Shown one piece after another: positions 11,912 through 41,347 of a stretch of DNA of 54,566 nt. The stretch comes from an uncultured Siphonobacter sp. GTDB lineage: Bacteria > Bacteroidota > Bacteroidia > Cytophagales > Spirosomataceae. Under the pieces are notes generated by a model that was given only the letters and a program-made list of their open reading frames with translations, was not told the origin of the DNA and did no database searches. The stretch lies in the NCBI GenBank assembly GCA_913774715.1, contig CAJYHS010000173.1, positions 1-54,566 of the forward strand, read 5' to 3'. Position 1 is the first letter of the stretch. Each line of letters begins with the position of its first letter. A program made the position numbers and the translations under genes.

Positions 11912-12499
11912 TTAGTAATTGACATTAACCACTAGTTTTTCAATTAATAAAATCAGGATATGAATGACTTTGATGTGAATCTCCTGAATGCGGTCGGCGT
12001 AACCGAAATGAGGTACGCAGATTTCTACGTCGGCCTGTCCGGCCAGCTTACCTCCGTCTTTTCCCGTCAGGATTACGACTTTCATACCTTTGGCACGGGC
12101 TGCTTCTACGGCCTTAATTACGTTACCGGAATTTCCTGAGGTACTGATCCCTAGTAATACATCGCCTTCGAAACCCATACCTTCCACAAAACGGCTAAAC
12201 ACGTATTCATAGCCGTAATCATTGGAAACGCAGGACAAGTGACTCACGTCAGAAATAGCGATAGCGGGTAACGAACGGCGTTCGTTACGGTAACGACCCG
12301 TTAATTCCTCGGCAAAGTGCATGGCATCGCAGTGTGAACCGCCATTACCGCAGGAAATAATCTTTTTATTATTTTGAATCGCCTCGGCCATTAACTGAGC
12401 CGCCGCTTCAATATTTTTTACATGAGTTTCGTCTGATAAAAAGCGGTCTAGTACCTGCTGGGCTTCCGTTAATTCCTGACGAATAATAGATTCTAACAT
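11912..12499 (-). CDS. gmhA: Phosphoheptose (sedoheptulose-7-phosphate) isomerase
   Basis: Converts sedoheptulose-7-phosphate to D-glycero-D-manno-heptose-7-phosphate, the first step of ADP-heptose synthesis for LPS core. The 195-aa SIS-domain sequence is close to E. coli GmhA throughout: [61 protein letters not shown] and [22 protein letters not shown], including the conserved Glu and His of the active site. The last residues (LVVNVNY) differ from the enterobacterial tail. It starts 27 bases after the M16 peptidase stop, so the two are probably co-transcribed; no other heptose gene is in the window. Confidence 0.95.
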
Positions 12500-12526
12500 T
12501 TTCAGTTTTTAGTTTGAAGTCTTCAA

Positions 12527-13765
12527 TTAAGCTGAAGCCCGGTAATATAAGGTTGAACAGTTTTCGGGACGAAGTATATTTCGGGCAGCGGCCTGAATTA
12601 AATCAGGCGTGACCGACTGAATGCGATCGGCTTCCTGATTAGCCCATTCCGCGTTACCGGCGTTGGCAGCAAAGGCCAGATTCATGGCCCGGTTCAATAA
12701 CTCTACCTCCGAGAACGCCAGCGTCGCTTCAGCCTGATTTTTCACTTTCAGCACTTCCGATTCCAGTGGGCCTTTGGCCAGTAACTCCTCAATGATTTCC
12801 TGAACGGCGGCCTCCCCTTCTTCAATACTTACCCCTTTATTGAGGTTCCCCTGAATCACGAACAGACCTGGCTCCAGGTTACCCGTTGGGTAGGCGTTAA
12901 TAGAATTAAAAAGAGCTTTTTCCTTTACCAGCTTCCGGTATAAACGAGAAGACTTGCCCCGGCCCAGAATATCCGCCATTAAATCAGCGGGATAAAAACC
13001 AGCCTCATAACGGCCCGGCATGTGATAGGCCTTATACAAGGCATCCAGTGGAACTTTGGCCTCTATTTCCAGAAAACGAGCTTCGGTTTGCAAAGGCTCC
13101 TGGGGCAAATTCCGCTCATAAGGCTGACCCGCCGGAATGGGCTCAAACCACTTTTTGCTAAGTTCCTTAATCTGGTTAACGGTTACGTTACCCGCCACTA
13201 CCAGCAGAGCATTATTGGGAACATAATACCGGAAAAAGAAATCGCGAACATCTTCCAGCGTTGCTTCTTCAATGTGCTTGATTTCTTTGCCAATCGTAGC
13301 CCAGCTATAGGCGTGCGTGTGATACGCCAGTGGCCGTAATTTCAGCCAGACATCGCCATAAGGCTGATTGAGGTAGCGTTGTTTGAATTCTTCGATTACC
13401 ACATTCCGCTGCACTTCCAAGACTTGCGGATCAAAAGACAGTGACAGCATCCGATCGGACTCCAGCCAGAAGGCAGTTTCCAGATTAGTTGACGGAAGAG
13501 TAATGTAATAGTTGGTAATATCTGCTGAAGTAAAGGCGTTATTTTCTCCCCCTACCCGTTGCAAAGGCGTATCATAATCGGGAATGTGCTTTGATCCACC
13601 GAACATCAAATGTTCAAATAAGTGAGCGAACCCGGTTTTGGCAGGATTTTCGTCTCTGGATCCTACATTATATAAGATATTAACCGCCGCCATTGGAGTC
13701 GTTGCATCCTCATGCACGTATACCCGCAGGCCGTTCTCCAATGTAAAAGTTTGATAGTCAATCAT
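12527..13765 (-). CDS. M16-family zinc metallopeptidase
   Basis: A 412-aa pitrilysin/insulinase-type peptidase. The inverted zinc motif HLFEH (about residues 48-52, in TGFAHLFEHLMFGGS) with the distal Glu region (QRNVVIEEFKQR) marks it as the catalytically competent partner. The usual C-terminal half with LYRKLVKEKAL (R/Y substrate-binding region) is present. No signal peptide is evident, so it is probably cytoplasmic, degrading small peptides. It is first gene of a two-gene unit with gmhA. A -7 promoter box lies at 13825-13832, in the divergent region shared with the TPR gene. Confidence 0.9.
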   Translation of the reverse strand: MIDYQTFTLENGLRVYVHEDATTPMAAVNILYNVGSRDENPAKTGFAHLFEHLMFGGSKHIPDYDTPLQRVGGENNAFTSADITNYYITLPSTNLETAFWLESDRMLSLSFDPQVLEVQRNVVIEEFKQRYLNQPYGDVWLKLRPLAYHTHAYSWATIGKEIKHIEEATLEDVRDFFFRYYVPNNALLVVAGNVTVNQIKELSKKWFEPIPAGQPYERNLPQEPLQTEARFLEIEAKVPLDALYKAYHMPGRYEAGFYPADLMADILGRGKSSRLYRKLVKEKALFNSINAYPTGNLEPGLFVIQGNLNKGVSIEEGEAAVQEIIEELLAKGPLESEVLKVKNQAEATLAFSEVELLNRAMNLAFAANAGNAEWANQEADRIQSVTPDLIQAAARNILRPENCSTLYYRASA

Positions 13766-13824
13766 AGTCGGGACACGGATTTACTTTTTCAAAGCCAACG
13801 GCCGAATCATCCGTTTCATTCTGG

Positions 13825-13832
13825 CAAATCTA
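13825..13832 (-). promoter_or_regulatory. -7 promoter element for the M16 peptidase unit
   Basis: Reads TAGATTTG on the minus strand (TAnnTTTG consensus), 60 bases before the start. A -33 element is not obvious. Confidence 0.4.
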
Positions 13833-13921
13833 CGGCACTGCTTGAAAAGCTTCCTATCTTTAGGGCTTCAATATTTCGTTAATTTTATAACGATTCGTTT
13901 GAATCGTCGCATACATCAGCC

Positions 13922-15049
13922 ATGAAACGTCGTATTTATTCAACCTTCTGGATTTCTATTCTGTTTTGTTTTTTCTTTTCGTCGAGCCTGAAAGCTCAGA
14001 TTTTAAACGATGCTGATACGAAAGAGCAGGTTATTCAAGCGTTAAAGCACCTTTATAATTTTGAGTTTAAGGAAGCCGAACCTTACCAGCAACGCATCAA
14101 AAACCGATATCCTGCTCACCCGGTCAATCCCCTGCTCGAAGCCATTCAGACCTTCTGGCAATACCTGCCTGTAGTTGAGAACAGCTCTGCCGCCACTCGG
14201 TATCAATCCTATCTGAATCAATCCCTGGCATTAGCAGAGAAAATGAAGACAGCCAATAAGCACGATACCGAAGCTACCTTCTTTTTACTGGCGACGCATA
14301 GTTACCTGGCTATGTTAGAATCAGATCGGGGAGAGTTTATGAAAGCTGGTGCCGAGGCGAAGCGTACGTATAGTTATATGCGTAAAGGTTTCAAGCTCAT
14401 GGAACAAAATCCGGAGTTTTACTTTTCAACCGGACTATACAATTATTACAGAGAACAATATCCGCAGGATCACCCCGTAGTGAAGCCTATCATGTTCTTT
14501 TTTCAGGATGGTAATAAAAACCTGGGATTAAAACAGATGGAAACGGGGTATCAAAAAGGAATTTTTACGAAAACGGAGGCCGCCTACTACCTGACTTATG
14601 TATTAATTAAACACGAAAATAATCCGGTAAAAGCCCTGAGTTATTCTACACCTTTATACAAAGAATATTCTGATAATCCGGTATATATGACTCGCCATGC
14701 GGAAGCTCTAACTCTCTCAGGACGTTATGGTGATGCGGAACCTTTAGCTCAGCAACTGGCTCAGAAAAAACATTACGTGTTCAAAACAGCTGGAGAAGTA
14801 TTCATAGGATTAATTCTCGAAAAAGGAAAGAAAAACGACGGAGCCGCCAATGCTTATTACCAGAAGGCCGTTCTTAATAAAATAAGCGAACAATATACGC
14901 AGGATTATCACGCGATGGCCTACTGTGGTTTAGCCCGAATTGCGGAAAGAAATGGGCAAGCTAAACAGGCTAAAGACTACTATCAGAAAGCTCAGAAACT
15001 GGCAGAATATAGCAGCACCGTGCAGGAAATAAAACGAGCCTTAAAGTAA
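13922..15049 (+). CDS. Secreted TPR-repeat protein, unknown
   Basis: A 375-aa protein with a signal peptide (residues 1-25, MKRRIYSTFWISILFCFFFSS...LKAQ) and a body of helical repeats with the TPR rhythm, e.g. around ALTLSGRYGDAEPLAQQLAQ and AMAYCGLARIAERNGQAKQAKDYYQKAQKLA near the C-terminus. TPR proteins are scaffolds for protein contacts; here it would act in the periplasm. Divergent from the M16 peptidase, with 156 bases between. No catalytic motif. The next gene starts about 120 bases further on. Confidence 0.75.
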   Translation: MKRRIYSTFWISILFCFFFSSSLKAQILNDADTKEQVIQALKHLYNFEFKEAEPYQQRIKNRYPAHPVNPLLEAIQTFWQYLPVVENSSAATRYQSYLNQSLALAEKMKTANKHDTEATFFLLATHSYLAMLESDRGEFMKAGAEAKRTYSYMRKGFKLMEQNPEFYFSTGLYNYYREQYPQDHPVVKPIMFFFQDGNKNLGLKQMETGYQKGIFTKTEAAYYLTYVLIKHENNPVKALSYSTPLYKEYSDNPVYMTRHAEALTLSGRYGDAEPLAQQLAQKKHYVFKTAGEVFIGLILEKGKKNDGAANAYYQKAVLNKISEQYTQDYHAMAYCGLARIAERNGQAKQAKDYYQKAQKLAEYSSTVQEIKRALK

Positions 15050-30052: not shown

Positions 30053-30163
30053 TTAAACCCGCTGGGTCGAATCAGGCCGATACCGATGGTTACCTGTTTT
30101 GGAGCAGCCCGCACAACTGGTTAATCCTGCCAGTAGCAGGAGTGAAAGGTAATAGATTTTCAT
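30053..30163 (-). CDS. Tiny 36-aa lipoprotein, last gene of the tubulin/stator operon
   Basis: A 36-codon gene, too short for routine gene calling. It starts at ATG 30163, overlapping the TGA of the OmpA/MotB-like gene by ATGA, so it is translationally coupled. It reads MKIYYLSLLLLAGLTSC: a two-residue basic start, a hydrophobic core and a lipobox LTSC with the lipidated Cys at position 17. The mature peptide would be only 20 residues, with a second Cys three residues later, then polar and basic. Very small lipoproteins of this form occur in several envelope systems, but no family is recognised. The coupling is the main support for it being real. Confidence 0.7.
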   Translation of the reverse strand: MKIYYLSLLLLAGLTSCAGCSKTGNHRYRPDSTQRV

Positions 30164-30804
30164 AAGGACTTACCGACTTTGGAGGTGATCTGGATGGTAA
30201 ACCGACGGTTAGCATTTTCGTTGCGGGGATCACGGGATTTACCAAAGTGACCACTTCCAACGATTAATACTTCGCAGTTTTTAAACTGATCAAAGTTAAT
30301 ACCATTTTGCTTCCAAAAATCCACCAGAGCTAATGCTCTTCGGTAACTCAATTCATAGCCGTTTTGCCGTCCAAACGCACTTTGCCAGTTATCGTTGGCT
30401 CGCTGGGCGTTTCCTTCTACCACTACCATGTAACTCACATCGGGATTTTCTCGGGCCACTTTCTTGATTTTACCGAATAACACCCGACCCGCTTCCAGTA
30501 ACTCCCGCCGGGTGCGAGCGTCCAGCTCTTCCATGTCGGCCTTATTCGGGCGGAAACTTACGTCTACGCCCAGTCGAAAGCGTTTATTATTTTCGTCGTA
30601 TTTGAAATACGTACCATTCAGTTCCTGTAAAGCCCGTTCGATGGTCTGAATTCGCTGATACTTCAAAGCATCGCTTAAGTATCCCTTTTCCTTGGATTTC
30701 AGAATGGCAACCGTCAGCACATACAGCACCAGCATGACAAAGAAGAGACTTGTCATCAAGTCGGTATAACTGGGCCAGAAAAAGTCGGGATGTTTGGTTT
30801 TCAA
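30160..30804 (-). CDS. MotB/OmpA-like stator subunit
   Basis: A 214-aa protein: one N-terminal membrane helix (about residues 10-36) that carries an Asp at position 15 in SYTDLMTSLFFVMLVLYVLT, the layout of MotB/ZorB/ExbD-type subunits where this Asp carries the ion, then a coiled stretch and an OmpA-type domain (about 90-205) with VVVEGNAQ, ELSYRRALALVDFW and the terminal NRRFTIQI. The OmpA domain would bind peptidoglycan. It follows the MotA/TolQ-like gene by 32 bases and most probably forms the stator with it. The TD of the OmpA TDxxG loop is replaced by NA, so peptidoglycan binding is not assured. Confidence 0.85.
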   Translation of the reverse strand: MKTKHPDFFWPSYTDLMTSLFFVMLVLYVLTVAILKSKEKGYLSDALKYQRIQTIERALQELNGTYFKYDENNKRFRLGVDVSFRPNKADMEELDARTRRELLEAGRVLFGKIKKVARENPDVSYMVVVEGNAQRANDNWQSAFGRQNGYELSYRRALALVDFWKQNGINFDQFKNCEVLIVGSGHFGKSRDPRNENANRRFTIQITSKVGKSL

Positions 30805-30836
30805 TGAGCAATTACCTTATAGAAATAATAATCTAA

Positions 30837-32432
30837 TCAACTTTTAGCCGAAAACATTCGTCCCCAGGTTCCTTTTTCCAATCGTTTGACCATACGTTCG
30901 ATGAGTTGGAGCGTCTGCGTCTGTTGCCTTCCTAAAGATTCCAGCTGCTGCCGAATCTGTTCCTGGCGAATGGAATCATTCCGATGATATTCGTTGGCAT
31001 TTCGTTCCAGTAATTCCAGGTAATCCAGTTTGCTAAGCTTATCACGGTTTTGGGTGAAGTACTCGTCCGTCGCGTTAATCTCACGAATTTTAATATCCTC
31101 GATACTTTTCAGCTGACTATGAATCGTACGATCCAGGGATTTCAAACTCTGATCTATCAAATCGTCGTACTGACCTACCTTGTTATTAAAGGCCTGCCCA
31201 TGCTGATCCAGATGTTTAAAGTGAGTCGTCAGATACAAATATAAATCCTGTGATTGCTGCAGGGATTTGGAAATCTGAATGGAGATGTCCTCTACATTCT
31301 GAGTCCGCTCTACGATTTTTTGCGTGTTATCAACCAGTCCATTTAGCTGATTGAGGTAATAGCCAAACTTTTCAAGAGCACTCAAACTTCCGTCCAGCTG
31401 ACTTAATACCTGTACATTGAAGCTCGCCACCCGGTTTAAATCAACCTGTTGCAACATATCCAGGGCTTTTTGCTGGGCCATGAGTGAGTCGTGATTTTTA
31501 TCAACCATGCCGCTCAACTCCTGCACATTCTCCCGGAAGGAAGCACTGAAATCCTGAATGCTTCGATTCAGGGTTGTAAAAATTCCAGTATTCACTCCTT
31601 CTGATAAAACAGGTAGTAATTCAGTCTGCAGGAAAGAGAAAAAATCCTGCTTCTGAGCTTCCAGCATAGATTTAGCATCCCGAAACGACCAGTTGTTCAA
31701 TACGGTTAGTAACAGACCTGCCAAACTGGCCAGCATCGCGATCTTTACACCTCCGATGAGGTTATTAAGCCCATCCCCTTCAAGGAAGCTAGTCGACCCT
31801 ACATTAGGCATGGCAAATAAACCGATTACAATCCCGGCCATCGTTCCCATTAAGCCTAGATACAGTGGAATCGGCATGGTGAGACTAATGCCTTCTTCTT
31901 CCGCATCCAGATTGCGATCCGTAATGTCACGCAGGAGATTAAAATCTGCCAGCGAAGTACGGTTTCGAATCAGATACGTATTGATACTTTCCAGAATCTT
32001 GCTAATTCCTGGTGATTTATCTTTGGAGTGAATGATGGGTATTTCAATGGCTTCCCGGCTGGGATGCATGGTTTTAAAATTCCAGATGTCTTCCCGAATC
32101 TGTCGCAACTCTTCCTCTGCTTCCTCACGCATTACATCATGTAACTCTTTTGATAACAAGACTACGAGCTGGTCTTCGCGGCGGGTTAGTTCTTCGAGTT
32201 GAAAACTGGTAACCTGCGTGCGTTGCGAAAGACTATCAATTTGGGTAAGAACCTCCCGCGTAGAAAGTTGCTCTATATCCTGACGTAAGACTTTATATCG
32301 TTGCAGGGTAAAAGTGGAGCCTTCGGGTATTAGCTCGCGAAACCGTTTAATCTTTTCCCGGGTATTCTGCCACACCCAGGCCTGAGCCGCCAGAATCCCG
32401 AGAATAATAACGATTTCAATAATTTGAACCAT
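30837..32432 (-). CDS. MotA/TolQ/ExbB-like channel with long coiled-coil tail
   Basis: A 531-aa membrane protein. Helix 1 is at residues about 3-20. The MotA/TolQ-type pair is at about 190-250: PLYLGLMGTMAGIVIGLFAMP, then LIGGVKIAMLASLAGLLLTVLNNW, the hallmark GT...G and A/G-rich helices of proton-channel subunits. Residues 255-531 are almost all coiled coil, unusual for MotA or ExbB but like the tail of the Zorya subunit ZorA. Residues 30-130 are also helical. Probably forms an ion-driven motor with the next gene's product. It is separated from the previous gene by a 150-base spacer with an inverted repeat. Confidence 0.8.
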   Translation of the reverse strand: MVQIIEIVIILGILAAQAWVWQNTREKIKRFRELIPEGSTFTLQRYKVLRQDIEQLSTREVLTQIDSLSQRTQVTSFQLEELTRREDQLVVLLSKELHDVMREEAEEELRQIREDIWNFKTMHPSREAIEIPIIHSKDKSPGISKILESINTYLIRNRTSLADFNLLRDITDRNLDAEEEGISLTMPIPLYLGLMGTMAGIVIGLFAMPNVGSTSFLEGDGLNNLIGGVKIAMLASLAGLLLTVLNNWSFRDAKSMLEAQKQDFFSFLQTELLPVLSEGVNTGIFTTLNRSIQDFSASFRENVQELSGMVDKNHDSLMAQQKALDMLQQVDLNRVASFNVQVLSQLDGSLSALEKFGYYLNQLNGLVDNTQKIVERTQNVEDISIQISKSLQQSQDLYLYLTTHFKHLDQHGQAFNNKVGQYDDLIDQSLKSLDRTIHSQLKSIEDIKIREINATDEYFTQNRDKLSKLDYLELLERNANEYHRNDSIRQEQIRQQLESLGRQQTQTLQLIERMVKRLEKGTWGRMFSAKS

Positions 32433-32450
32433 GATGGGTAATAAGTTTTC

Positions 32451-32580
32451 AGTTTGCCGTTTTCGGTTTTCAGTTATTGCTCGTCAGTATCATTCAAATC
32501 AATTACCAACTTTACCACTTATAAATCCTGATTTTCATCATTACTTAAAATTGAAAACTGAAAATCGAAAACGGCAAACT
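32451..32580. repeat. Long inverted repeat in the operon, spacer 1
   Basis: Arms 32451-32473 and 32558-32580 match in 22 of 23 bases when one is reverse complemented (agtttgccgttttcgg.. form), 84 bases apart. It lies wholly between the coiled-coil scaffold gene and the MotA-like gene. The arm sequence is related to those at 33951-34100 and 39320-39564. Confidence 0.7.
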
Positions 32581-32582
32581 AT

Positions 32583-33917
32583 CTAATTTTCAAAGCGAAT
32601 GATCGCTTTATATTGTAATTCCCAACGATCGGATTCGAGGTCGGTTTTTACTAATTTCCCTTTAGCTACAGTCGCAATATTACGAGCTCCAAATTCAATT
32701 CCCCCGCCGTAATCGCAAACGGGATCCAGGAACGTTTCGGGATACCGAAGAGCTTCACTTACCAGAGCAGGGTCATTTACAAATTCAAATTCTGCACTGT
32801 AAGGACTCGTTACCCGAACATGGTATAAAGATTGCGAAGGATCAAACTGCACCGTTCTTACATCCCGGAAAGAACCATCTTTGTTAGGGGTAGAAAGGTA
32901 AAAGGCCTCCGGTTCTTTCCGACTGTTTTCTGCAAAAGTTTCTTCTACCACTGGTTTTTCCTCTGGTAAATCCGGCAAAGGCTCTTGCGTTGGGTCTGCC
33001 ACTACAGGCAGCCTTTCTTCGGCCGGCTGCTCAGTAGGTGGAGTCATAGGTAATACGGGCAGAACCGGTGGTGTTGCCGATGCAGGATGAACTGGCGGTG
33101 GTGTCATGGCTGCCTGAAGATTTTGTACTTCCTGTAACCAGCGTTTTCTTTCGTTTTCACCTCTTTCCTGACTGTCCTTCAAAGCTCGGTCATATTCTTG
33201 CAGAGCCTTTTCATATTCCTTAATCTTCGAGATTAACTGCGGCACCTGCTTTTCCAATTGCTGCATTTTCACAAAGCTCTGACTAGCCTGACTTGAGGTA
33301 TTCAGCATTTGTCGTTCCAAATGATCCCGCTTCTTCTTCTCATCCCAATACAGGTATCCCAAACCAATAGCAGCCAGCACACTTATTCCGGATACAATCC
33401 ACCAAATCCAGGGCGAATCTTCAGACTTTCCAGCCATAAGAGGAACGCCGTCAAGAGCTGCATGGGCTGCCGTATCCGGCATCACTTCTGTTCCGTCGGC
33501 TAGAGCGGTATCGCTATCCATCATAGCATCCTGCCCATCCAGGTTATTCCGCAGGTTTTCAACGAAGCTACCCAGAGCTACCCGCGTTTGAAGAATGGAT
33601 GTTTTCTTACCGGTCTTAGGGTCTTTTTCTGTAAGATTTTCCAGATCGTTCAGAATCTTACTGACTTTCGGCTTATCCTGATCACTCAGAGGCTTTTGTA
33701 TGTAGGGCTTCAGTTGGTCCAGCAATCCAGAAACGTTCGGTAATGCCTTACTCCCTCTAAAAAAACCACTTAATTTTTGGTGAAATTCACCATAGGTAGC
33801 CGTTGTATTTTTTCCTCCTGCTTCTTTGAAAATGTCTTTCTGAGTAGCCAGAGGTGTTTGAGCAAAGGCTATCGTCGTGTAGCACAAAGCCAAGGTTAAT
33901 AGCAATAATCGACGCAT
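32583..33917 (-). CDS. Signal-peptide, TM, coiled-coil and Pro-rich scaffold protein, unknown
   Basis: A 444-aa protein. Order: a Sec signal (residues 1-19, ending IAFAQ), an extracytoplasmic helical domain (about 20-165), a single membrane helix (about 173-195, WIWWIVSGISVLAAIGLGYLY), a cytoplasmic coiled coil (about 200-270), a Pro-rich linker (about 275-330, TPPPVHPASATPPV and following) and a compact C-terminal domain (about 340-444) starting with EAFYLSTPNKDGSF. The layout suits a bridge between an envelope part and cytoplasmic partners such as the Hsp70-like and tubulin-like proteins of the same operon. I recognise no family. Confidence 0.75.
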   Translation of the reverse strand: MRRLLLLTLALCYTTIAFAQTPLATQKDIFKEAGGKNTTATYGEFHQKLSGFFRGSKALPNVSGLLDQLKPYIQKPLSDQDKPKVSKILNDLENLTEKDPKTGKKTSILQTRVALGSFVENLRNNLDGQDAMMDSDTALADGTEVMPDTAAHAALDGVPLMAGKSEDSPWIWWIVSGISVLAAIGLGYLYWDEKKKRDHLERQMLNTSSQASQSFVKMQQLEKQVPQLISKIKEYEKALQEYDRALKDSQERGENERKRWLQEVQNLQAAMTPPPVHPASATPPVLPVLPMTPPTEQPAEERLPVVADPTQEPLPDLPEEKPVVEETFAENSRKEPEAFYLSTPNKDGSFRDVRTVQFDPSQSLYHVRVTSPYSAEFEFVNDPALVSEALRYPETFLDPVCDYGGGIEFGARNIATVAKGKLVKTDLESDRWELQYKAIIRFEN

Positions 33918-33950
33918 ATTTTTTAAGAATTGAGGTTGTTCATTTATTAG

Positions 33951-34100
33951 TTGCCAGTTTTCTATTTGCCGTTTTCAGTTATGGTTAGTGTAAAGGAATT
34001 TTTGATTAACCACAGAGTTTCACAAAGTATTGCTCAGAGTTACTCCGTGAAACTTTGTGGTTAACTTGCAAACTGAAAACGGTAAACAGAAAACTGACAA
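33951..34100. repeat. Long nested inverted repeat in the operon, spacer 2
   Basis: Outer arms 33951-33980 and 34071-34100 match in 27 of 30 bases. Inner arms 34006-34027 and 34043-34064 (ttaaccacagagtttcac form) match in 19 of 22. The whole element could fold into one long hairpin. It lies between the Hsp70-like gene and the scaffold gene. Confidence 0.75.
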
Positions 34101-34105
34101 CCACA

Positions 34106-37100
34106 TTAATTGGCAGCTTCCCAGGCAAGCTGGTTCAGGGCTCCGACCAGAGGATAGAAGAATAAGGTTTCTTCTATCGGGGTATTCGGATTTTCCAGTC
34201 CTTCACGTCGCATGTCCCAACCGCTATGTACATTTTGCAAGAGGTTTCTTAATAGGGTGCTCTTGTATTGCTCCAGTCGGCCTTCATTTACGCCAAACTT
34301 ACCGCTAAATGAAAACTCCAGGCTGAAAAGTGTTTCCACAAATTCCCGAACTTCATCTGCTACGCCCTGCAATACTTCACTATCAATTTTCTGATAGGTA
34401 TCTCCCCGCACAATCAGACGGTCTTCTTTCGTTCCGAGTAATACGGTTTTAATTTTATCCATGTCCGCTTCCAGACGGCCATCATCTTCACGGATAAAGC
34501 TAAGTCCAGGCATTTTCAAGCCGCCTTTACAGGTAGATTCCTTGGGAGAATTACGCTCCCGAACAATGTCCAGACCATCCGCATGGTACGGCTGTCCGTA
34601 TACTTTTTCGAAGATCAACACCGCCAGATCAGACAAAGCTGCATTTCGAGGCGTCAGAATATCCAGAATCTTGGAACCCGTCCCGCTGAAGGCAATATAC
34701 CGGGGCATATCCTTACCCTTCGCTTTCATTAATCGAGCAAGGTGATAAATCTGAGCCGTATAAAATACCAATGGGACAATCTTCAGATCAGAGTCATTGG
34801 CTAAACGATCATTGAAATCATAAGCGGCTTTCTCGCGTAAATCACGGTTGTTTTTCAGCGAAAAGTAGAACGCCACAATATCTTCCGATCGATTATTATC
34901 TTTAATTGCCTTATAAGCAGCACCCAGGTTACTAAAGTTAGCGGACAAATGGGCGGTTACTTCTGGGTCATACTTTTTGACAAAGCCATTTCGGGCTGCC
35001 GCTCCATCCCGAGCAAAGCCATCTCCAAATACTGCATTACCCGCAAAACGCACTGAAGTAAGCACATTAGGCTGGTTTTTCTCAAAGACTACTACGTCTG
35101 CCGTGCCTCCACCAATATCGATCAATGCCGTTGGGTAAATGTTAGAATCAATCGGCTGGCTGCTTCCGCCTCCCCGACTATACCAGTAAAACGGAGCAAT
35201 ACTTTCGGGTACTTTCCGGGGCATTCGCTCCTGCGTAATGGTTTCCGCATAGAGTTTATTCCAGAGTCCTTCGAAATAATTACGCTGATTTTCAAGCATA
35301 CTCAGGGGATAAAACCAGAGTAGTTCGGTATGAGCCAGGTTTCCGCCGTTAATCAGAACCTTATTACGGATGAGTAATAACAGCGACTGCAAAAAGCCTT
35401 CAATCCGCTTTTGTGCCTTGATATTCTTGCTGAAATCCGACCATTTAAGATTCGTAGAAACGGTATAATCGTCTTTAGGAATATTCCGTTTCTCGTAAAG
35501 GAAACCAATATTAAAGTCCCCAAAGCCGTACAGGTTTTCACCAGAGAAATTAGGTCGGTTTTCGATCAGAGCCGTGCGTTGCGGGAATTTACATAAATAC
35601 GCATCGCCCAAATGCTCAGGTATCAGCTCCTGAGGCACCAGTTCCGTAATATCGTTAGCCCGTAAACTATTTAACGCTTCCGTACTGGAAGGATCAATCA
35701 GAGTGGCGATTTGAACGTCATCATCAATCGTGAAAGGACGCGGCTGGAAATCTTCCGAAGTAGTGAATTCCACGTGCGTATTAGTCGTTCCAAAGTCAAC
35801 GGCAAAACGGAAGAAGGTATCTTTCATTTCACGAACTTCAAACTTCGGTAAAATAACGCCCCGATGGCCCGCTACTTCAACGGTAATTCTCTCAAAATCA
35901 GCTTCAATAACCTGTATTTCTGATTTCGCTCCTTTATTCAAGTCTTTCTGGCTTCGCGGACGAATTCGGTTTTGAGGAACCGGAATCAGCTGATTTTTTT
36001 CATCATAGAAACTCAGCTTATACTCATTTTTGAAGGTTTGAGCCGACACATCACGATCCACCAGATGTACTCGGTACATCGGTTTAAAGTTCGGCATGGT
36101 TACCCGCTTCATTTTCACGAATGGGAATACTGTTAATCCAAACTGATGCTCTGCAATAACTCCTTCGTTTTTTTCTTCACTCGGCGTTTTTGTCGGATCA
36201 TCGTAATACATCCGCGAAAGCTTCAGCAGACGACCCGTAGGCACCACTTTTTGCTGAGCAACGTCCCACTTACCCAACGGAATCTGAAGCGTAACTCGTA
36301 CGGAACCACCCGCCCGCTCTTCCATCTGAATACTGACATCCCCACCCCGCATCAAATCCTGAGCCGAGAAAAACTCAAAGAAATCAGGCTTTAGGGGTAA
36401 CAGGTAGCTTTTCTGAACGTGCCGTAACCCGCCGTCAAAAAAGCGTTGAGAGTTAATGGGATATACCAGACGAATCAGATGAGGTTCCAGAAAATCGCTG
36501 GTAGTCAGATAAGGGTAATAATCAGCTTGACCGGGTAACTGACGCTGATTGGTTCGCCAGTCTTCCGATACATGATGTTTCACCTCAATCGAGTCCCGCC
36601 AGGGAATGCGGGTGTAAGGAATGGGCTCAAAGAAATCTTTAGATAACACCATCGGGGCCGGACGATCCGTATAACGTTGTTTACGAACGCCATACTCGTC
36701 TAACTCTTCTGTTGGACTAATCAGGAAATGGCTTAACCCCTGAATAACTTCAGGACCCGAAGCCGCTTTCCGCATTTTGAAAGCTGGGCCCGATGATAAG
36801 GAGGCGAATTCAACGATAGAATTAGTATCAAACTCCAGTTCGGGGAAATCGGCATTCCAGGCTTCTTCCCGCAGATTCTGTCCATTCGCTCCGATGCGTT
36901 GCCAGGTTTCGTAATCGCGGTTATGAAGTAATTCCAGACTGCGACTTAGGTACTCGGATACTTCCGGGTACATTTCACGGAAGCCCGGCATAAACCGTTT
37001 CAATCCATGCCAGAATACCTGATACTCAATATCCCGATCGTGCAAAGGCACGGGATTATTACGGTCAAATACCCGGTGATTACCAAAATGAATATCTACG

Positions 37101-37672
37101 AAATCCAGATGGTTAGGAGCATTGAAGAACAAAGTAGCCGGAGAGGTTCCTCCAATCACGCCCGTTCCCTGCCGACTTTGGTATTGCAGAATAAAAAGCT
37201 TGCGTAAACCCGTGAAGTTATAACTGGCGGCATCTTCCCGCAGGTATAAATCCAGAGCCGAACCCAACCGCTGATGGTTACGTGAACCATTTTGTAAGGT
37301 TCGAAGAGCCTGCTCCCGATCCCAGGTAATGATGCGAAGCGGGCCTTTAGGGGACTTGAATTTATCGAAATTGAAGAAGATTTCTCCCACGTCAAAACAA
37401 GCCGAAACCAAACGTTCGTCATTCAGTGAACCCTTGAGATCACTGTATAAAATCAAATTACGAAAAGCTGATTTTACCAGATCAAAGCGAGCAAAAGGAC
37501 TGGGAATGGAGGTTGGATCTTTCTCGGTATCACCTTTGGCTTTATCGTCAATGGCTTCAATTAAATCCGTAGTATAGGGTTGCGATACAAACCAGTGACC
37601 ATCGACCGAAGCCGAACGATCATGCAGGTTAAGTTCGCGTTTAAGTGACTGATCAGCCATAGATTCTTTCAA
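34106..37672 (-). CDS. Giant protein with Hsp70/actin-type ATPase core, unknown N-terminal region
   Basis: A 1188-aa protein, soluble by sequence. The second half (about 615-1060) has the signature of the Hsp70/actin/MreB ATPase fold: FAVDFGTTNTHVEF (phosphate-1, near residue 622), TALIDIGGGTADVVVFEK (phosphate-2, near 850) and YIAFSGTGSKILDIL (adenosine motif, near 996). The first 610 residues have no motif I can name, contain WDREQA and HEELL-like helical stretches, and are probably a specific adaptor. It sits between the tubulin-like gene (upstream, 106-base gap) and the scaffold gene. Expected activity is ATP-dependent conformational change or filament formation; neither is shown. Confidence 0.8.
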   Translation of the reverse strand: MKESMADQSLKRELNLHDRSASVDGHWFVSQPYTTDLIEAIDDKAKGDTEKDPTSIPSPFARFDLVKSAFRNLILYSDLKGSLNDERLVSACFDVGEIFFNFDKFKSPKGPLRIITWDREQALRTLQNGSRNHQRLGSALDLYLREDAASYNFTGLRKLFILQYQSRQGTGVIGGTSPATLFFNAPNHLDFVDIHFGNHRVFDRNNPVPLHDRDIEYQVFWHGLKRFMPGFREMYPEVSEYLSRSLELLHNRDYETWQRIGANGQNLREEAWNADFPELEFDTNSIVEFASLSSGPAFKMRKAASGPEVIQGLSHFLISPTEELDEYGVRKQRYTDRPAPMVLSKDFFEPIPYTRIPWRDSIEVKHHVSEDWRTNQRQLPGQADYYPYLTTSDFLEPHLIRLVYPINSQRFFDGGLRHVQKSYLLPLKPDFFEFFSAQDLMRGGDVSIQMEERAGGSVRVTLQIPLGKWDVAQQKVVPTGRLLKLSRMYYDDPTKTPSEEKNEGVIAEHQFGLTVFPFVKMKRVTMPNFKPMYRVHLVDRDVSAQTFKNEYKLSFYDEKNQLIPVPQNRIRPRSQKDLNKGAKSEIQVIEADFERITVEVAGHRGVILPKFEVREMKDTFFRFAVDFGTTNTHVEFTTSEDFQPRPFTIDDDVQIATLIDPSSTEALNSLRANDITELVPQELIPEHLGDAYLCKFPQRTALIENRPNFSGENLYGFGDFNIGFLYEKRNIPKDDYTVSTNLKWSDFSKNIKAQKRIEGFLQSLLLLIRNKVLINGGNLAHTELLWFYPLSMLENQRNYFEGLWNKLYAETITQERMPRKVPESIAPFYWYSRGGGSSQPIDSNIYPTALIDIGGGTADVVVFEKNQPNVLTSVRFAGNAVFGDGFARDGAAARNGFVKKYDPEVTAHLSANFSNLGAAYKAIKDNNRSEDIVAFYFSLKNNRDLREKAAYDFNDRLANDSDLKIVPLVFYTAQIYHLARLMKAKGKDMPRYIAFSGTGSKILDILTPRNAALSDLAVLIFEKVYGQPYHADGLDIVRERNSPKESTCKGGLKMPGLSFIREDDGRLEADMDKIKTVLLGTKEDRLIVRGDTYQKIDSEVLQGVADEVREFVETLFSLEFSFSGKFGVNEGRLEQYKSTLLRNLLQNVHSGWDMRREGLENPNTPIEETLFFYPLVGALNQLAWEAAN

Positions 37673-37778
37673 ATTGAAGTCTCAATCTATTTTCATGCGA
37701 TAACTAGCGGTGTTTTGCTGGACCAAAATTCTAGGCTGTCCGCGAAAAGCGGGCCGGGCCACGTAGGTCGCAGCTCTG

Positions 37779-39317
37779 TTAATTAGCCGCCAGTTGCGGG
37801 TATTCTTTTTGCACGAACTGCTCCGTACAGGTATTCATCAGACTCAGGAATTTATCTTCTGACGTCACAAAGGACTTCCCTTTCGATTCGGCATTCAGAT
37901 ATTCATCAAAATCGCCCTTGTTCATTTCAATCTGAACATCAACGGTCTTGCCGATGAAGTTTTTCTTCGTTCGCTCAAAGCCTGGTATAAACTTGCCCAG
38001 GTCTTCCGTCGCCAGATTGAATGGTCTAAAAGTTCGCTTATTGAAAATATTCCGATCCTGATCGTTCATCTCTGATAACCACGCTCGAAAATTTTCGTTG
38101 AAATCGTGCAGATTCCGATAAAACTTGGTTTGCTTGAAATCAGAACCAATTTTGGGAGCTTCCTTACTCGTCCAGGGAGCACTGTTGCTACCCAGAATAC
38201 TATCCCGTTCAACGCGGGTCTTCAGGTATTGGCTTAAAATGGCCAGCTTGGTTAAGGGCTGGGCAAATACCTGCCGGGACCGATCCACGAAATCCGTGAA
38301 GTTCAGTCGGGAATTGTTCGTGTTTAGGCCAAATTCAGCATAGCGAGGATTTCGGGCAATAATCTGTCCGTCCCGAACGGTACACTCCATTTCGTTGGTA
38401 TGTTCGCAAAAATCGACAATCGATAAAGCCGAGATCATTTCCACGTAATGAGCATCGTTTTGCTGCCCACCTGCTCCGGGATCATACTCATTCGGACTAC
38501 GGTAACTTTCGGCGATGTAATACAGGGCGTTCAGTTTCGGATATTCTTTGTTAGAAAGACTGTTCTGGTAATACCCCAGAGCCGCTTTGGTTTTTGAAAT
38601 AAACGTGGCATTATCAATCGCTTTATCCTGAGCACCCGCCGAATACACGTCAAAATAAGGCTGTACGGAAACGGCTCCAATCCGGGCTTCGCGAACGTCT
38701 TTAGCGTCCGAACCACCATAGCCCCGGATGTTTTTAAGGATCAGAGGAAACCCTGAAGCTCCCGTTCCGCCGAAAATAGAGCTGATAATAAATACCTTAT
38801 CTTCTTTTTTATACGAGCTTACAAAAGCTTTAAACTCCTCGGATTCCCGAAACTGATTTAATACCACCGAACCAATATTAGGATTACCGACAAAGCCAAT
38901 ATCCATTTTGGTATCAAGTTGTTCTTTCGAGAAAAGTAATCCCGCCAGGGCTTCATTGGCCTCGTCGAGCGAGTCATGGCCGATGTAGTTACCGTATTTT
39001 TCATCGCTTACGCCCTTCAGTTCATACTGAAACGAATCAGAAATGGCCGCACTGGGTAACTGGCGTTTCAGGGTTTGAATGTCCGTGCCAAATAACCCCG
39101 CAGACGGAGGGTTCTGAAGCGACGAACGAACATTCTGATAATAATTCAGAATTTCTTTTGTCCGTTTCAGGTCTTTATTTTCAGCGTGTGGGTCCATCAA
39201 AATGGGAACCACCTGCGTAGTATTGCGGAGCTTTACCCCGGAAGCTAACAGGTAAGTCAATGACTTGACCACCCGGGCTCCAGTACCTCCAATCGCAAAT
39301 AAAAAAAGTCGAGACAT
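37779..39317 (-). CDS. Tubulin/FtsZ-like GTPase
   Basis: A 512-aa protein of the tubulin superfamily in its wider sense. The N-terminal nucleotide loop is at residues 9-15 (AIGGTGARVV), and the tubulin/FtsZ phosphate-binding signature is at 183-189 (IFGGTGASGFP), preceded by the expected hydrophobic strand (KVFIISS). Spacing is longer than in FtsZ. The C-terminal half has no T7 NxDxx(D/E)-type loop I can point to with confidence, so filament-forming and GTP hydrolysis are predictions. It is far from FtsZ, and the context with vWA and OmpA proteins matches a family previously proposed from genome comparison for membrane remodelling. Confidence 0.82.
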   Translation of the reverse strand: MSRLFLFAIGGTGARVVKSLTYLLASGVKLRNTTQVVPILMDPHAENKDLKRTKEILNYYQNVRSSLQNPPSAGLFGTDIQTLKRQLPSAAISDSFQYELKGVSDEKYGNYIGHDSLDEANEALAGLLFSKEQLDTKMDIGFVGNPNIGSVVLNQFRESEEFKAFVSSYKKEDKVFIISSIFGGTGASGFPLILKNIRGYGGSDAKDVREARIGAVSVQPYFDVYSAGAQDKAIDNATFISKTKAALGYYQNSLSNKEYPKLNALYYIAESYRSPNEYDPGAGGQQNDAHYVEMISALSIVDFCEHTNEMECTVRDGQIIARNPRYAEFGLNTNNSRLNFTDFVDRSRQVFAQPLTKLAILSQYLKTRVERDSILGSNSAPWTSKEAPKIGSDFKQTKFYRNLHDFNENFRAWLSEMNDQDRNIFNKRTFRPFNLATEDLGKFIPGFERTKKNFIGKTVDVQIEMNKGDFDEYLNAESKGKSFVTSEDKFLSLMNTCTEQFVQKEYPQLAAN

Positions 39318-39319
39318 AG

Positions 39320-39564
39320 GAGTTTTCGGTTTTCAGTTTGGAGTTTTCAGTTTGGGGAGCTTGCTACAGTTTAGCATCAATCCATTCCCCAACACCACTT
39401 TCAAAAACTCTTTACTCGTTTCGTTTTCTGTTTTCTTTTAACCGTTTTCAGTTTTGTTAGGGAACCGTCATACTTGTTTAAACATAACTATATCATACCC
39501 TGTGAAACGTTGAACTATGGGTGATAGCCCCCACTGAAAACGGAAAACCATAAACTGAAAACTC
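39320..39564. repeat. Long inverted repeat in the operon, spacer 3
   Basis: Arms 39320-39357 and 39528-39564 share about 30 of 37 bases in reverse complement (gagttttc..gttttcagt..gggg). Another gttttctg/gttttcag stretch lies at 39423-39455. It fills the 246-base spacer between the 3-TM gene and the tubulin-like gene, and its right arm reaches the stop of the 3-TM gene. Confidence 0.6.
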
Positions 39565-39989
39565 TAAAATGGAATTTTCCGGTTGTTGGTGCTTAGGTTT
39601 TTAACGGCCAGTGATAGTACAAAAAAGAGTACGGCGGCCAGTAAAAACATTTCAAAGCCGAAGCCGAAGAATACGCCTCCCCCCTGATCAAAGTAACGCC
39701 CTAGTTCGGGATGCCCTTTCCGGCGGGGAATTTCCTGATTTGCTTTTTGTGAACAGGTAACAATCGCCACAATCATGGTTAATATCGCACTGCTTCCCAG
39801 AACGACTAACCACGTCGATGCTTTCGCATAACGAACTTTGTTCATGCCAAAGTAATAAGCTCCAACCCCAATCAGCACAAACACGATAAGAGTTGTGGTG
39901 AGGGAAGTTAATAAATGCTCATCGTACAAATCATCCAGAAGCGAGCGTTCGGTGAATAGAGCATAAAAGTCGTAAAGCAGATTTTCCAT
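39564..39989 (-). CDS. Three-helix membrane protein of the tubulin/stator operon, unknown
   Basis: A 141-aa protein with hydrophobic helices at about residues 28-47 (LTTTLIVFVLIGVGAYYFG), 57-79 (STWLVVLGSSAILTMIVAIVTC) and 107-130 (FGFEMFLLAAVLFFVLSLAV). Its ATG shares the A of the upstream TAA (TAATG), so it is coupled to the vWA-like lipoprotein. No named domain. Its place between an envelope lipoprotein and a cytoplasmic GTPase suggests a membrane adaptor, which is inference only. Confidence 0.75.
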   Translation of the reverse strand: MENLLYDFYALFTERSLLDDLYDEHLLTSLTTTLIVFVLIGVGAYYFGMNKVRYAKASTWLVVLGSSAILTMIVAIVTCSQKANQEIPRRKGHPELGRYFDQGGGVFFGFGFEMFLLAAVLFFVLSLAVKNLSTNNRKIPF

Positions 39990-41347
39990 TAGTGTAGATT
40001 GATCGTAATCGTAAAATAGGTGTTGGCTTGCTGAGGATTGTAGGCTTTCTCAATGCCTCGGGTAAAATTCAGGATTCCAAACGTCTTTTCCGAGAAATCA
40101 TCTGACTTCGGATTGCTGTCATCCTGTGTCGTGGTCTGGGTAATCCAGCTTGGCGGGAATTTACGTTTCAGTCGTAAGGTAATTTCCCGTTTTCCCCCAC
40201 CCTGTGGTTCTGCGGTAGTTAGTAAAAACTTGTGCGTATACCCTTCCGGGCCCTTTTCAGCTACGATTTTCTGAATTTTAAAGCCTTCATCCGACTCAAT
40301 TTCGTAGGATTTAGGATCCGTTTTATAAGAATCAGGCAAATAAAAACCGCCCAGATCAATCCCAACGGCCAGGGTCAAACCGCGAGTTTTGCGATCGGCT
40401 TCAATGTTTTCAATCGTGTGAATGGCCTCCTTGCTTTCTTTACGTTCCTGACGGCTCTGTTCAAACTGGCCCGCCTGTTCGGCATCTTTTAATAGAATGG
40501 TATAAAAGGGCACATTATCCGTCGCACTGGTGAAGTAATGAAAGGATTCAAAACCGGGCAACTCTTTGAAACGGGATAGAGCCTCAAATTTTTCATCCGA
40601 TAACAACGCTTTCATCGTCGCATTATTGGCCATCAGAGCAATGTAATACGGACGTGAACCACTGTAAGGCTTTCCACCGCCATTATGCGGATAATACGTT
40701 CCTTTGAAGGCTCCGTTCAATTTCAGGATTAACAAGGATTTGTCCTTCGTTTTTCCGGCGAAGGTCGTTTGCATCAGGGTTTCGACATCCGCCAGAATTT
40801 TAGTAGAAGATTGAGCCGCTGTTGATTCCGTCGAGTAAATCAGATCTGAGAACAGTACCCCTACTTCTCCCTCCTTCAAATCCGACAGAATTGTCTTGAA
40901 AATCAAACTAAAGTCGGTATGGCGGGAATCGCCTTTATCTTTTGCCAATGTGAAAACATTAGGCTGTTCTACCAACTGCTGAAAATTAACCCCCATGGGA
41001 TAGACGTTGTCATTCACGACAAACAATTCCGTCGAGCCAGATTTCTGAGCTTCAAAAGGAGTTAATAAATTCTGTAAAGCTTCATCAAACTCTCCCGTGC
41101 TTCCTGCCGCGTCGTAAGGAAACATACTGCCGCTGGCTTCGAGGTATAACTTAGCTTTAAGACTTTTAGGAGCAGGTTTGGCAGCCGCACCTTCCATAAC
41201 CGATTCCGTTTGGGCAACAGGATCGGATTCCACATCCTGCCGTCCCCGTTTGCGATCACTGCCACCGCACTGGGTTAATAAAAGAATTGAAGCTGATAAG
41301 GCTGAGAAATAGAAGGCTCGTAACCAGAGAATACGCATAGATTTCAA
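39989..41347 (-). CDS. vWA-like lipoprotein, first gene of the tubulin/stator operon
   Basis: A 452-aa lipoprotein: hydrophobic start and lipobox LTQC with Cys27, then a charged linker to about residue 62 and a von Willebrand A-like domain. The metal-ion site reads ExSxS rather than DxSxS (E70, S72, S74 in LYLEASGSM), with the further positions T144 (SRHTDFSL) and D168 (VLFSDLIYS) present. The last 130 residues form a beta-rich domain with GGKREITLRLKRKFP. vWA proteins are adhesion or assembly modules. It is coupled to the next gene by a TAATG overlap. The E-for-D change may weaken metal binding. Confidence 0.75.
   Translation of the reverse strand: MKSMRILWLRAFYFSALSASILLLTQCGGSDRKRGRQDVESDPVAQTESVMEGAAAKPAPKSLKAKLYLEASGSMFPYDAAGSTGEFDEALQNLLTPFEAQKSGSTELFVVNDNVYPMGVNFQQLVEQPNVFTLAKDKGDSRHTDFSLIFKTILSDLKEGEVGVLFSDLIYSTESTAAQSSTKILADVETLMQTTFAGKTKDKSLLILKLNGAFKGTYYPHNGGGKPYSGSRPYYIALMANNATMKALLSDEKFEALSRFKELPGFESFHYFTSATDNVPFYTILLKDAEQAGQFEQSRQERKESKEAIHTIENIEADRKTRGLTLAVGIDLGGFYLPDSYKTDPKSYEIESDEGFKIQKIVAEKGPEGYTHKFLLTTAEPQGGGKREITLRLKRKFPPSWITQTTTQDDSNPKSDDFSEKTFGILNFTRGIEKAYNPQQANTYFTITINLH

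Follow-up and report, generated by a model that had tools for sequence, protein, structure and literature searches.

An operon of eight genes in a Siphonobacter sp. joins a tubulin-like protein and an actin-superfamily ATPase with a vWA-like lipoprotein, two membrane proteins, a putative ion-driven stator pair and a short tagged lipoprotein. The core of this gene set is kept in order in relatives, and the tubulin-like protein and the ATPase occur together. To our knowledge, no bacterial operon outside division has relatives of tubulin and actin as regular partners. We tentatively propose, at less than even confidence, that the operon encodes a trans-envelope switch driven by nucleotides and ions, with a Zorya-like logic and a cytoskeletal core, whose job would be to mount an inducible response to insults to the envelope, including invaders.

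Organization of the Operon

The operon was analyzed within a stretch of 54,566 nucleotides (the window). The preliminary description had placed eight ORFs on the minus strand, and all of them were recovered at the same positions (Table 1), as were two overlapping junctions, TAATG between gene 1 and gene 2 (gap of -1) and ATGA between the genes for MotB and the 36-aa lipoprotein (gap of -4). The remaining intergenic gaps measured, in order from gene 2 to gene 7, 246, 106, 188, 150, and 32 bases. The TTG starts of the ATPase and vWA genes are merely the first starts encountered; ATGs a few codons further in are more likely, for gene 1 the likely start being the ATG three codons in. As 23 terminator-like sites were found in the region against 17.4 expected, the hairpin upstream of gene 1 is notable for its stem length only. 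The gene ispE begins 45 bases past gene 8, and therefore the 3' end of the operon is not clearly insulated.

Table 1. Genes of the operon and the upstream hairpin, in positions of the window.
Feature	Position	Strand	Remarks
vWA-like lipoprotein, gene 1	39989-41347	minus	452 aa
3-TM protein, gene 2	39564-39989	minus	141 aa
Tubulin-like protein, gene 3	37779-39317	minus	512 aa; Tubulin_2 / FtsZl1-like; T1 GGTG, T4 GGTGASG
Actin-superfamily ATPase, gene 4	34106-37672	minus	1188 aa; DFGTTNTH and DIGGGTADV
Signal/TM/coiled-coil protein, gene 5	32583-33917	minus	444 aa
MotA/ExbB/ZorA-like stator subunit, gene 6	30837-32432	minus	531 aa
MotB/ZorB-like subunit, gene 7	30160-30804	minus	214 aa
Lipoprotein, gene 8	30053-30163	minus	36 aa; tag CAGCSKTGNHR
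Terminator-like hairpin upstream of gene 1	41522-41495	minus	12 pairs, 7 G-C

Gene 3 Encodes a Tubulin-Like Protein and Gene 4 an Actin-Type ATPase

The gene 3 product scored 27.4 bits against Tubulin_2 (PF13809), above the curated cut-off of 27, and PF13809 was matched by 51 of 51 homologues at E<=1. Together with the tubulin/FtsZ fold of the predicted structure, this upheld the earlier tubulin assignment. When its tubulin profile was compared with solved structures by sequence search, FtsZ and CetZ were best, at E 0.33-0.40 only. Past residue 344, predicted helices are at most 27 residues long each. A match to MnmE reached E 0.12. A phage-borne origin was rejected, as tblastn of the tubulin against 50,697 phage records gave no match at E<=1e-5.

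Gene 4 had been described as an Hsp70 protein. In the predicted structure its C-terminal residues 618-1070 form an actin-superfamily ATPase domain of the Hsp70/actin type, preceded by an N-terminal part (about 55-615; strand-rich at 447-638) and followed by about 118 residues that are helical in the model; the fold search covered residues 618-1069 only. The ATPase fold was thus retained, whereas identity as an Hsp70 chaperone was ruled out, since there was no sign of a substrate-binding domain and PF00012 was absent at E<=1 from gene 4 and 39 homologues. In the same 39 homologues the SrfB family, considered as a possible Hsp70-type relative of the ATPase, was unmatched at E<=1, and a GAP1 domain was unmatched too. 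FtsA was matched weakly by 28 of the 39 (best 4.9e-4), in gene 4 itself over 33 residues only, and Ppx-GppA by nine (best 5.5e-5). The ATPase profile matched MreB (6.1e-4) in a sequence search of solved structures, and among the structural matches listed FtsA lay no nearer to the domain than did MreB, Arp2 or actin. Foldseek against viral models returned Hsp70 and actin proteins, which shows the fold and no more. No credible P-loop GTPase was detected in the eight products or the 39 ATPase homologues, and no credible GAP1 match among the eight products.

Genes 1, 2 and 5 Encode Extracytoplasmic and Membrane Proteins

Gene 1, two genes upstream of the tubulin gene, encodes an extracytoplasmic lipoprotein with a signal, a lipobox (LTQC) and a vWA-like domain. 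The vWA assignment is weakly suggested by a profile-profile comparison of the gene 1 family with a vWA family (probability 46.6%, E 2e-4; three control families gave 0.1%). The MIDAS-like motif reads ExSxSM (LEASGSM) instead of the standard DxSxS; among 111 homologues the pattern was found with E in 85, with D in 2 and not at all in 24, and the Gloeothece copy carries DGSGSM at this site. The product had no Pfam match, and a sequence search of solved structures with the family profile gave nothing relevant. Gene 2 has three TM helices, with hydropathy maxima at 26-44, 61-79, and 111-129. Gene 5 combines a signal peptide, a periplasmic part, a TM helix (171-189), a cytosolic coiled-coil-like stretch (about 194-270, judged by eye and from coiled-coil-type matches) and a C-terminal domain.

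The Core Is Conserved, Patchy in Occurrence and, in One Genome Pair, Transferred as a Unit

Relatives were drawn partly from the best 80 of at least 445 confirmed ones. The 130 loci read included 8 duplicates, leaving 122 distinct loci, and 17 with short flanks were omitted from the order count. Of 105 loci, 99 kept the strict core order; L185 and L186 are among those that did not, although their 3-TM and lipoprotein genes can be seen by eye. This conserved order places the cluster beyond chance and ruled out chance or an annotation artefact as its source. The preliminary description would have given up its reading had the gene order varied among relatives or had the tubulin and Hsp70 matches failed structure prediction; the order was conserved and both folds were predicted.

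The tubulin and the full-length ATPase occurred in an identical set of 43 genomes out of 101, and the ATPase was also present in both cyanobacterial copies read. The stator was missing from 70 of 104 loci and is therefore not needed for the core function; six of the 34 loci with a stator are from Siphonobacter. Both stator and ATPase had been regarded as additions to an older system, which fits the optional stator but not the ATPase, as regular as the tubulin gene. The MotA type was strongly matched in 13 genomes, all within the 43 with tubulin and ATPase, and the most that appeared in the other 58 was a single weak match interrupted by stops (G084, E 9e-4).

The system is patchy in the phylum (13 of 395 genomes); a search with a single ATPase sequence found it in 8 of 296 phylum genomes, two of these on the strength of just 37-38 residues. 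The loci of Cryomorpha (L097) and Halomarinibacterium (L098) are about 80% identical in DNA across a unit that begins close to the gene 1 start, finishes with the SNase gene and includes the hydrolase genes, and no shared DNA was found at E<=1e-10 in the flanks compared. In this one genome pair the system was transferred as a unit. Copies are also present on cyanobacterial plasmids. Neighbor genes are conserved across several genera, which would suit a long-kept function equally well, a point against the proposed switch. A defense island was not supported: at E<=1e-15, PADLOC families numbered 4 among 110 flank proteins (of 173) in stator-type loci and 5 among 87 (of 130) in stator-less loci, no excess of known defense families in a comparison whose two sets both flank the system, with no neutral control.

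A membrane-remodeling machine is the next most probable reading, though still less likely than not. It would act as a second apparatus like FtsZ-FtsA-Tol, in which tubulin-like filaments tethered to the inner membrane by the ATPase, gene 2 and gene 5 bend or bud the envelope while stator and MotB pull wall and outer membrane in the manner of TolQR-Pal. By analogy, the divisome (FtsZ-FtsA) and Tol-Pal likewise bring together a tubulin fold, an actin fold, an ion-driven stator and a peptidoglycan-binding protein. The regular pairing of the two folds and the weak FtsA matches of most ATPase homologues agree with this reading, as does an older proposal on membrane remodeling and vesicles, in the available part of its text (PMC2875224); the shortness of the FtsA match in gene 4 and the frequent lack of a stator do not. 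Patchy occurrence and the joint transfer seen in one pair of genomes would be odd for a function in shape or division, and the tagged proteases and nuclease described below would be left unexplained.

A Common Tag Links Gene 8 to Lipoprotein Hydrolases

The 36-aa lipoprotein gene of the preliminary description was confirmed, with the refinement that it corresponds to the tag part of protease lipoproteins, without an enzyme domain. Tag lipoproteins of 36-41 aa follow MotB in all seven Siphonobacter loci scanned (six distinct, window included), and in other genera the gene 8-type tag also stands at the start of longer protease lipoproteins. Clusters of tagged hydrolase lipoproteins comprised aspartyl proteases (18 distinct loci), trypsin-like proteases (4) and SNases (5), the last with a looser form of the tag; the vWA lipoprotein of L047 carries a tag also found on proteases. 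Tags were taken from one scan up to the first locus without the ATPase, later loci being read within the hydrolase clusters. Pfam was run on three aspartyl, one trypsin-like, two SNase, one WG and two zinc-ribbon-like cluster members, the last two scoring under the cut-offs. In 19 genomes the DNA pattern of the tag gave 26 matches, seven of them at the operon, against 15 for a reversed control pattern. Nine of the 19 off-operon matches were inspected and none lay within a lipoprotein signal, so the tag was rejected as a general export signal.

The tag shared by proteases, SNase lipoproteins, the Siphonobacter stub and the L047 lipoprotein, as well as the position of the hydrolase genes inside the L097/L098 unit, would suit a machine that transports or processes surface lipoproteins and secreted hydrolases, in which the tagged lipoproteins encoded next to it are exported or activated with power from the cytosolic NTPases and the stator. 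We consider this improbable: no channel or outer-membrane pore was recognized among the eight products, most Prevotella-type loci yielded no member of the three hydrolase clusters, and ordinary export needs no more than a signal and a lipobox.

Possible Kinship of the Optional Stator to ZorAB

Matches to the ExbB family, to ZorA2 (in homologues) and to ZorB bore out the earlier view of genes 6 and 7 as a MotA/MotB-type pair. By hydropathy, gene 6 has three TM helices; its C-terminal tail measures about 285 aa, and its family profile matched the ExbB family at 78% (E 1.7e-5). One ZorA2 model matched 9 of 23 MotA homologues at E<=1 (best 3.1e-8), and a second ZorA2 model matched 7 of the 23 (best 5.4e-10), in a scan in which unrelated families matched too, to 6.8e-7 in one member; the gene 6 product itself had no ZorA match, and its MotA profile found nothing relevant in a sequence search of solved structures. 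Gene 7 has a single TM helix, with Asp15 at the helix start, and an OmpA-type domain. Asp15 was invariant in two overlapping MotB alignments (12 of 12 and 21 of 21 rows). Gene 7 matched PADLOC ZorB1 (2.8e-10), and its family profile matched the solved ZorB 8vvn (1.4e-8). Judged from sequence, genes 6-7 thus encode a putative stator that is nearest to ZorAB among the families compared.

In NCBIfam, however, the best match of gene 7 was PRK09039, a peptidoglycan-binding protein (5.8e-7), ahead of ZorB1 (0.0011), whose score of 18.5 bits was far below the 400-bit cut-off. PADLOC ZorB1 also matched a flank protein of one stator-less locus (5.7e-19); as the MotB profile misses this protein, the ZorB label is non-specific. 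This ranking and this non-specificity slightly weaken our preferred explanation.

Among the 23 rows of the MotA alignment, T197 and S236 were kept in 21 of 21 rows from loci with MotB. In the MotB-less loci L091 and L093, S236 was lost from both and T197 from L091, and both kept the tail, which points to a possible function of the MotA tail beyond ion flow.

That the operon is a Zorya subtype proper with an unrecognized effector is very improbable despite its ZorAB-like stator: the core dispenses with the stator, ZorC, ZorD, and ZorE had no match among the eight products, and gene 7 missed the NCBIfam equivalog cut-off for ZorB1.

Comparison With Known Systems

No paper describing this gene set was found in a search of titles and abstract openings outside subscription papers, preprints and supplements. 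The kinship to FtsZ-like 1 (FtsZl1)/vWA systems suggested earlier was supported, with a Tubulin_2 match and a candidate vWA neighbor. Makarova and Koonin (2010; PMC2875224), who named cyanobacterial FtsZl1 clades, proposed that FtsZl1 operons act in membrane remodeling and vesicle formation. In the available part of that account a Tubulin_2 protein lies beside membrane proteins, as it does here, and beside a vWA protein, a place that gene 1 may fill, with OmpA-family proteins in several genomes. Frequent partners there are a P-loop GTPase and protein kinases, none of which was found in the Siphonobacter operon; the "distinct GTPase" carried over from this system into the preliminary description had no match among the eight products. 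FtsZl1 proteins mostly have an extended coiled coil after the tubulin domain, of which gene 3, with its short predicted helices in that part, gave no clear sign. The same part of PMC2875224 names no actin-type ATPase, MotA/MotB or Zor stator, or tagged hydrolase lipoproteins, and the ATPase may stand unrecognized among its unnamed families A1-A2 and B1-B9.

Kaur et al. (2020; PMC7159879), as far as the text is available, proposed gene sets with tubulin and vWA, and with HSP70, as conflict systems. Their tubulin is accompanied by two vWA proteins, one with an extracellular vWA, and accessories include zinc ribbons, GYF and trypsin, with HSP70 in a subset. Section 29 treats tubulin and HSP70 as non-overlapping themes on DO-GTPase and GAP1, whereas earlier passages place both in one class. 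In contrast to these DO-GTPase/GAP1-N2 systems, the Siphonobacter operon has tubulin and actin-type ATPase together, with no GTPase or GAP1 detected. The words MotA and stator are absent from the text of Kaur et al. (2020).

Like ZorAB of Zorya (PMC11890865), the stator would belong by homology to the 5:2 motor superfamily, with a B subunit bearing a critical Asp and a peptidoglycan-binding domain and an A subunit with a long cytosolic tail. In Zorya the stator is paired with ZorCD, ZorE or a type III component, whereas here it is optional and its partners are the tubulin, the actin-type ATPase, the vWA lipoprotein and two membrane proteins.

Proposed Function

In the proposed envelope-response switch, the vWA-like lipoprotein and the periplasmic part of gene 5 would sense that the periplasm or the outer membrane has changed, and gene 2 and gene 5 would relay the signal across the inner membrane. 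At the cytosolic side of the membrane, the tubulin-like protein would assemble or switch state together with the actin-type ATPase, as one unit. In the subtype with a stator, the ZorAB-like module, fixed to peptidoglycan by MotB and passing ions at Asp15, would drive or gate this assembly through the MotA tail. The output in relatives might include hydrolases that bear the lipoprotein tag and sit beyond the inner membrane, namely aspartyl proteases, trypsin-like proteases and staphylococcal-type nucleases; in Siphonobacter the tag alone would remain. We infer these steps and the job from computed gene order, two folds, hydropathy topology, co-occurrence, partner modules and the transfer in one pair. 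The cyanobacterial plasmid copies and the conflict systems proposed by Kaur et al. (2020) also speak for the switch. Against it stand the many loci that lack a stator, the weak vWA assignment, the flanks with no surplus of known defense families, and an operon in which neither a ZorC, ZorD or ZorE match nor a cytosolic nuclease was found.

It is possible, if doubtful, that the system is a horizontally mobile, self-contained trans-envelope cytomotor, neither divisome, flagellum nor Zorya, in which a stator, ion-driven and anchored to the wall, governs tubulin- and actin-family NTPases that act together, and interchangeable tagged lipoprotein hydrolases form the output. If true, coupling an ion-driven stator to relatives of tubulin and actin would be a novel means of driving or gating a cytoskeleton. 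Concrete handles on the FtsZl1 proteins, described in 2010, come from the ATPase as regular partner, from the ZorAB-like module and from the tagged hydrolases, and loci that naturally lack MotB could serve to separate the motor tail from ion flow.

Organization and conservation of the operon

Direct reading of the window bore out the preliminary description of eight minus-strand open reading frames, and the TAATG and ATGA overlaps as well as the quoted protein motifs were all present in the sequence. The ispE gene starts 45 bases past the last operon gene. The window belongs to Siphonobacter (Bacteroidota): among the matches listed, the nearest named record for the tubulin-like gene (gene 3) was Siphonobacter sp. 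BAB-5405 with 90% identity. Assignment of the gene 1 lipoprotein to vWA is a prediction based on its motif and on a profile comparison (46.6%, versus 0.1% for controls). Genes 2 (3-TM) and 5 encode membrane proteins according to hydropathy, and family searches with both gave no match above cut-off.

The tubulin gene was found in 43 of 101 genomes of the family and the actin-type ATPase (gene 4) gave a strong match in those same 43 genomes, one copy being split across two contigs. In 14 further genomes the ATPase profile matched over 36-114 positions only, mostly near 803-846 (phosphate-2 signature). The MotA type (gene 6) matched strongly in 13 genomes, every one among these 43. The Fisher values for co-occurrence (1.5e-29 and 4.5e-6) overstate independence, because the genomes sampled are related. 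Across the phylum, 13 of the 395 genomes sampled matched the tubulin profile (three distantly), and the gene is thus patchy in the phylum.

Of 122 distinct loci read around tubulin relatives (L-numbers), 105 had enough flank for gene order to be counted. Of these, 99 kept strictly to vWA - 3TM - tubulin - ATPase - gene 5 (exceptions L051, L106, L160, L179, L185, and L186); as the loci were picked by tubulin similarity, order was gauged among the nearer tubulin relatives. By record names they belong to Cytophagaceae and relatives, Sphingobacteriaceae, Flavobacteriaceae, Chitinophagaceae, Prevotellaceae and other Bacteroidales, and one Leptospiraceae MAG. One contig labelled as a Williamsia (Actinomycetota) MAG (L133) falls among Chitinophagaceae in the tubulin tree and is probably mis-binned.

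Features of the window and of compared loci
Locus	Positions	Feature	Remark
Window	30053-41347	Eight-gene operon, minus strand	
Window	41522-41495	Hairpin, 12 pairs	Upstream of operon
L051	11144-12688	514-aa DnaK-like protein after the actin-type ATPase, in the expected place of gene 5	Diverged copy; by eye
L095, Spirosoma telluris	7818-15020	vWA, tubulin, and ATPase each fragmented	Sequencing errors or decay
L179 (genome G487)	2255-7064	vWA, 3-TM, split tubulin, and shortened MotA/MotB adjoin; ATPase and gene 5 missing between	Genome with 13% contamination
L184	9692-11266; 12460-13187	Repeated pieces of OLD/AAA-like-looking ATPase and small toxin-antitoxin-like genes flanking the copy	By eye
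L185 (genome G407)	2-3196	Diverged copy adjoining SMC-like and DUF2399/DUF7281-like proteins	Wadjet-like by eye; DUF2399 E 7.6e-4, short of cut-off
L099	6982-8043	Protein near the system, similar to the N-terminal nuclease portion of type I restriction subunits	By eye; Sphingobacteriaceae
L105	6966-8027	As L099	By eye; Sphingobacteriaceae
L103	19301-20377	As L099	By eye; Sphingobacteriaceae
L098	7362	SNase-cluster member standing apart	
L105	19849	SNase-cluster member standing apart	

A tubulin relative (24.6-27.5% identity) was also present on five cyanobacterial plasmids. In the two plasmids read, genes stand one after another for a vWA-profile protein (1.2e-15 and 3.7e-7), a 3-TM protein (recognized by eye), the tubulin, an ATPase-profile protein of 1096-1118 aa (7.7e-49 and 7.7e-41), and then one or two TM proteins; the Gloeothece vWA-profile protein has DGSGSM and is encoded on the other strand. 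Of the TM proteins, just one fits the gene 5 profile (2e-7). Neither of these two copies gave a match to a stator gene. Their products are mostly annotated as hypothetical, except for the Gloeothece tubulin, a 'prefoldin domain' protein, and a 'TM2 domain' protein.

The stator genes as an optional module

Of the 104 loci that extend at least 7.6 kb past the tubulin gene, 34 have the stator (genes 6 and 7); MotA follows gene 5 in 33 of these 34, and 32 have MotB. In the tubulin tree, a 42-row Bacteroidales clade and the seven Spirosoma-type rows lack the stator. In the diverged L185, an OmpA-domain gene resembling MotB (OmpA 1.2e-16) stands in front and gene 5 is followed by a MotA-like gene (MotA_ExbB 1.1e-4, just short of the cut-off), which suggests that the stator association may be old. 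In L184 and L186, OmpA-type-looking proteins (by eye) stand instead of the pair, with TerD proteins also present in L186 (one tested, 4.3e-51). WG-repeat proteins are carried by 20 stator-less loci and zinc-ribbon-like membrane proteins by 11 and 12; in the loci read, none of these stands alongside MotA. In four loci (L046, L048, L146, and L155) MotA and MotB are separated by a gene for a protein of about 580-610 aa that has TM helices at its ends and, where read, a vWA-like DxSxS motif.

The MotA alignment covered 23 of the 34 MotA loci, directly or through a near copy. T197 and S236 were both kept in all 21 rows with MotB; L091 and L093, with no MotB at the locus, have both lost S236, and L091 also T197. 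By hydropathy, the gene 6 product consists of three TM helices and a tail of roughly 285 residues. Its match to Pfam MotA_ExbB fell short of the cut-off (E 0.072), but its family profile matched ExbB-type proteins with a probability of 78%, versus 0.1-0.3% for three control families. Two ZorA2 models matched 9 (best 3.1e-8) and 7 (best 5.4e-10) of 23 family members at E<=1; ZorA2 did not match the window protein at this threshold.

Asp15 of gene 7 is invariant in the aligned homologues. PADLOC ZorB1 matched gene 7 at 2.8e-10, and comparison of its family profile with solved structures revealed ZorB of 8vvn (1.4e-8), 8qyd (2.1e-7), and 8vvi (5.6e-4), the next structure reaching only 0.094; 8qyd, titled only 'membrane protein', is presumably ZorB. 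The ZorAB structures of PMC11890865 include 8vvn and 8vvi. A tight ZorB label is nevertheless counted against, since in NCBIfam PRK09039 (5.8e-7) ranks above ZorB1 (0.0011; 18.5 of 400 bits) and since PADLOC ZorB1 also matches an unrelated flank protein of a stator-less locus (alignment A11, 5.7e-19), which the MotB profile does not match.

Tagged lipoproteins and a movable unit

The gene 8 product (36 aa) is kept at 36-41 aa across the Siphonobacter loci scanned. Its tag (C-x-x-C-S-[KR]-[ST]-G), in this or a looser version, stands at the head of most members of an aspartyl-protease cluster (18 loci; L109 and L130 lack a clear tag), of a trypsin-like cluster (4 loci), and of SNase lipoproteins. 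Gene 8 is read as a stub in which the tag was retained and the enzyme either lost or never present. Cryomorpha (L097) and Halomarinibacterium (L098), whose names place them in different families, have matching DNA over 7.0 kb (80.9% identity) and 4.0 kb (78.5% identity). The similarity starts 130 bases inside the gene 1 frame and runs to the final codons of the SNase gene, interrupted by a divergent part of gene 5; the flanking sequence available showed no DNA match at E<=1e-10. In this one pair, the shared DNA delimits a nine-gene unit of seven genes plus the aspartyl-protease and SNase lipoproteins.

Possible function and relation to known systems

The system may, tentatively, be an envelope-insult switch with Zorya-like logic. 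Against this stand the non-specific ZorB label of gene 7, the failure to find a Zorya effector among the operon products, and the flanks, in which known defence families (PADLOC) are not in excess (4 families among 110 flank proteins of stator-type loci versus 5 among 87 of stator-less loci, both sets flanking the system and neither a neutral control). FtsZ-FtsA/Tol-like remodelling is a somewhat less probable reading, which fits badly with the patchy occurrence, the transfer seen in the L097/L098 pair, and the tagged hydrolases.

FtsZl1 was described with vWA, GTPase, kinases, and OmpA proteins (Makarova and Koonin, 2010; PMC2875224), and DO-GTPase systems with tubulin/vWA and HSP70 themes (Kaur et al., 2020; PMC7159879). 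Tubulin_2 proteins were called sparse and irregular and then set aside (PMC9871819), and the word tubulin does not occur in PMC12505986, a paper on MotAB. A joint description of a regular actin-type ATPase, a ZorAB-like module, and tagged hydrolases was not found in the open-access articles searched. The core common to the loci runs lipoprotein - membrane - tubulin/actin NTPases, and to it the stator and the tagged hydrolases are attachments.
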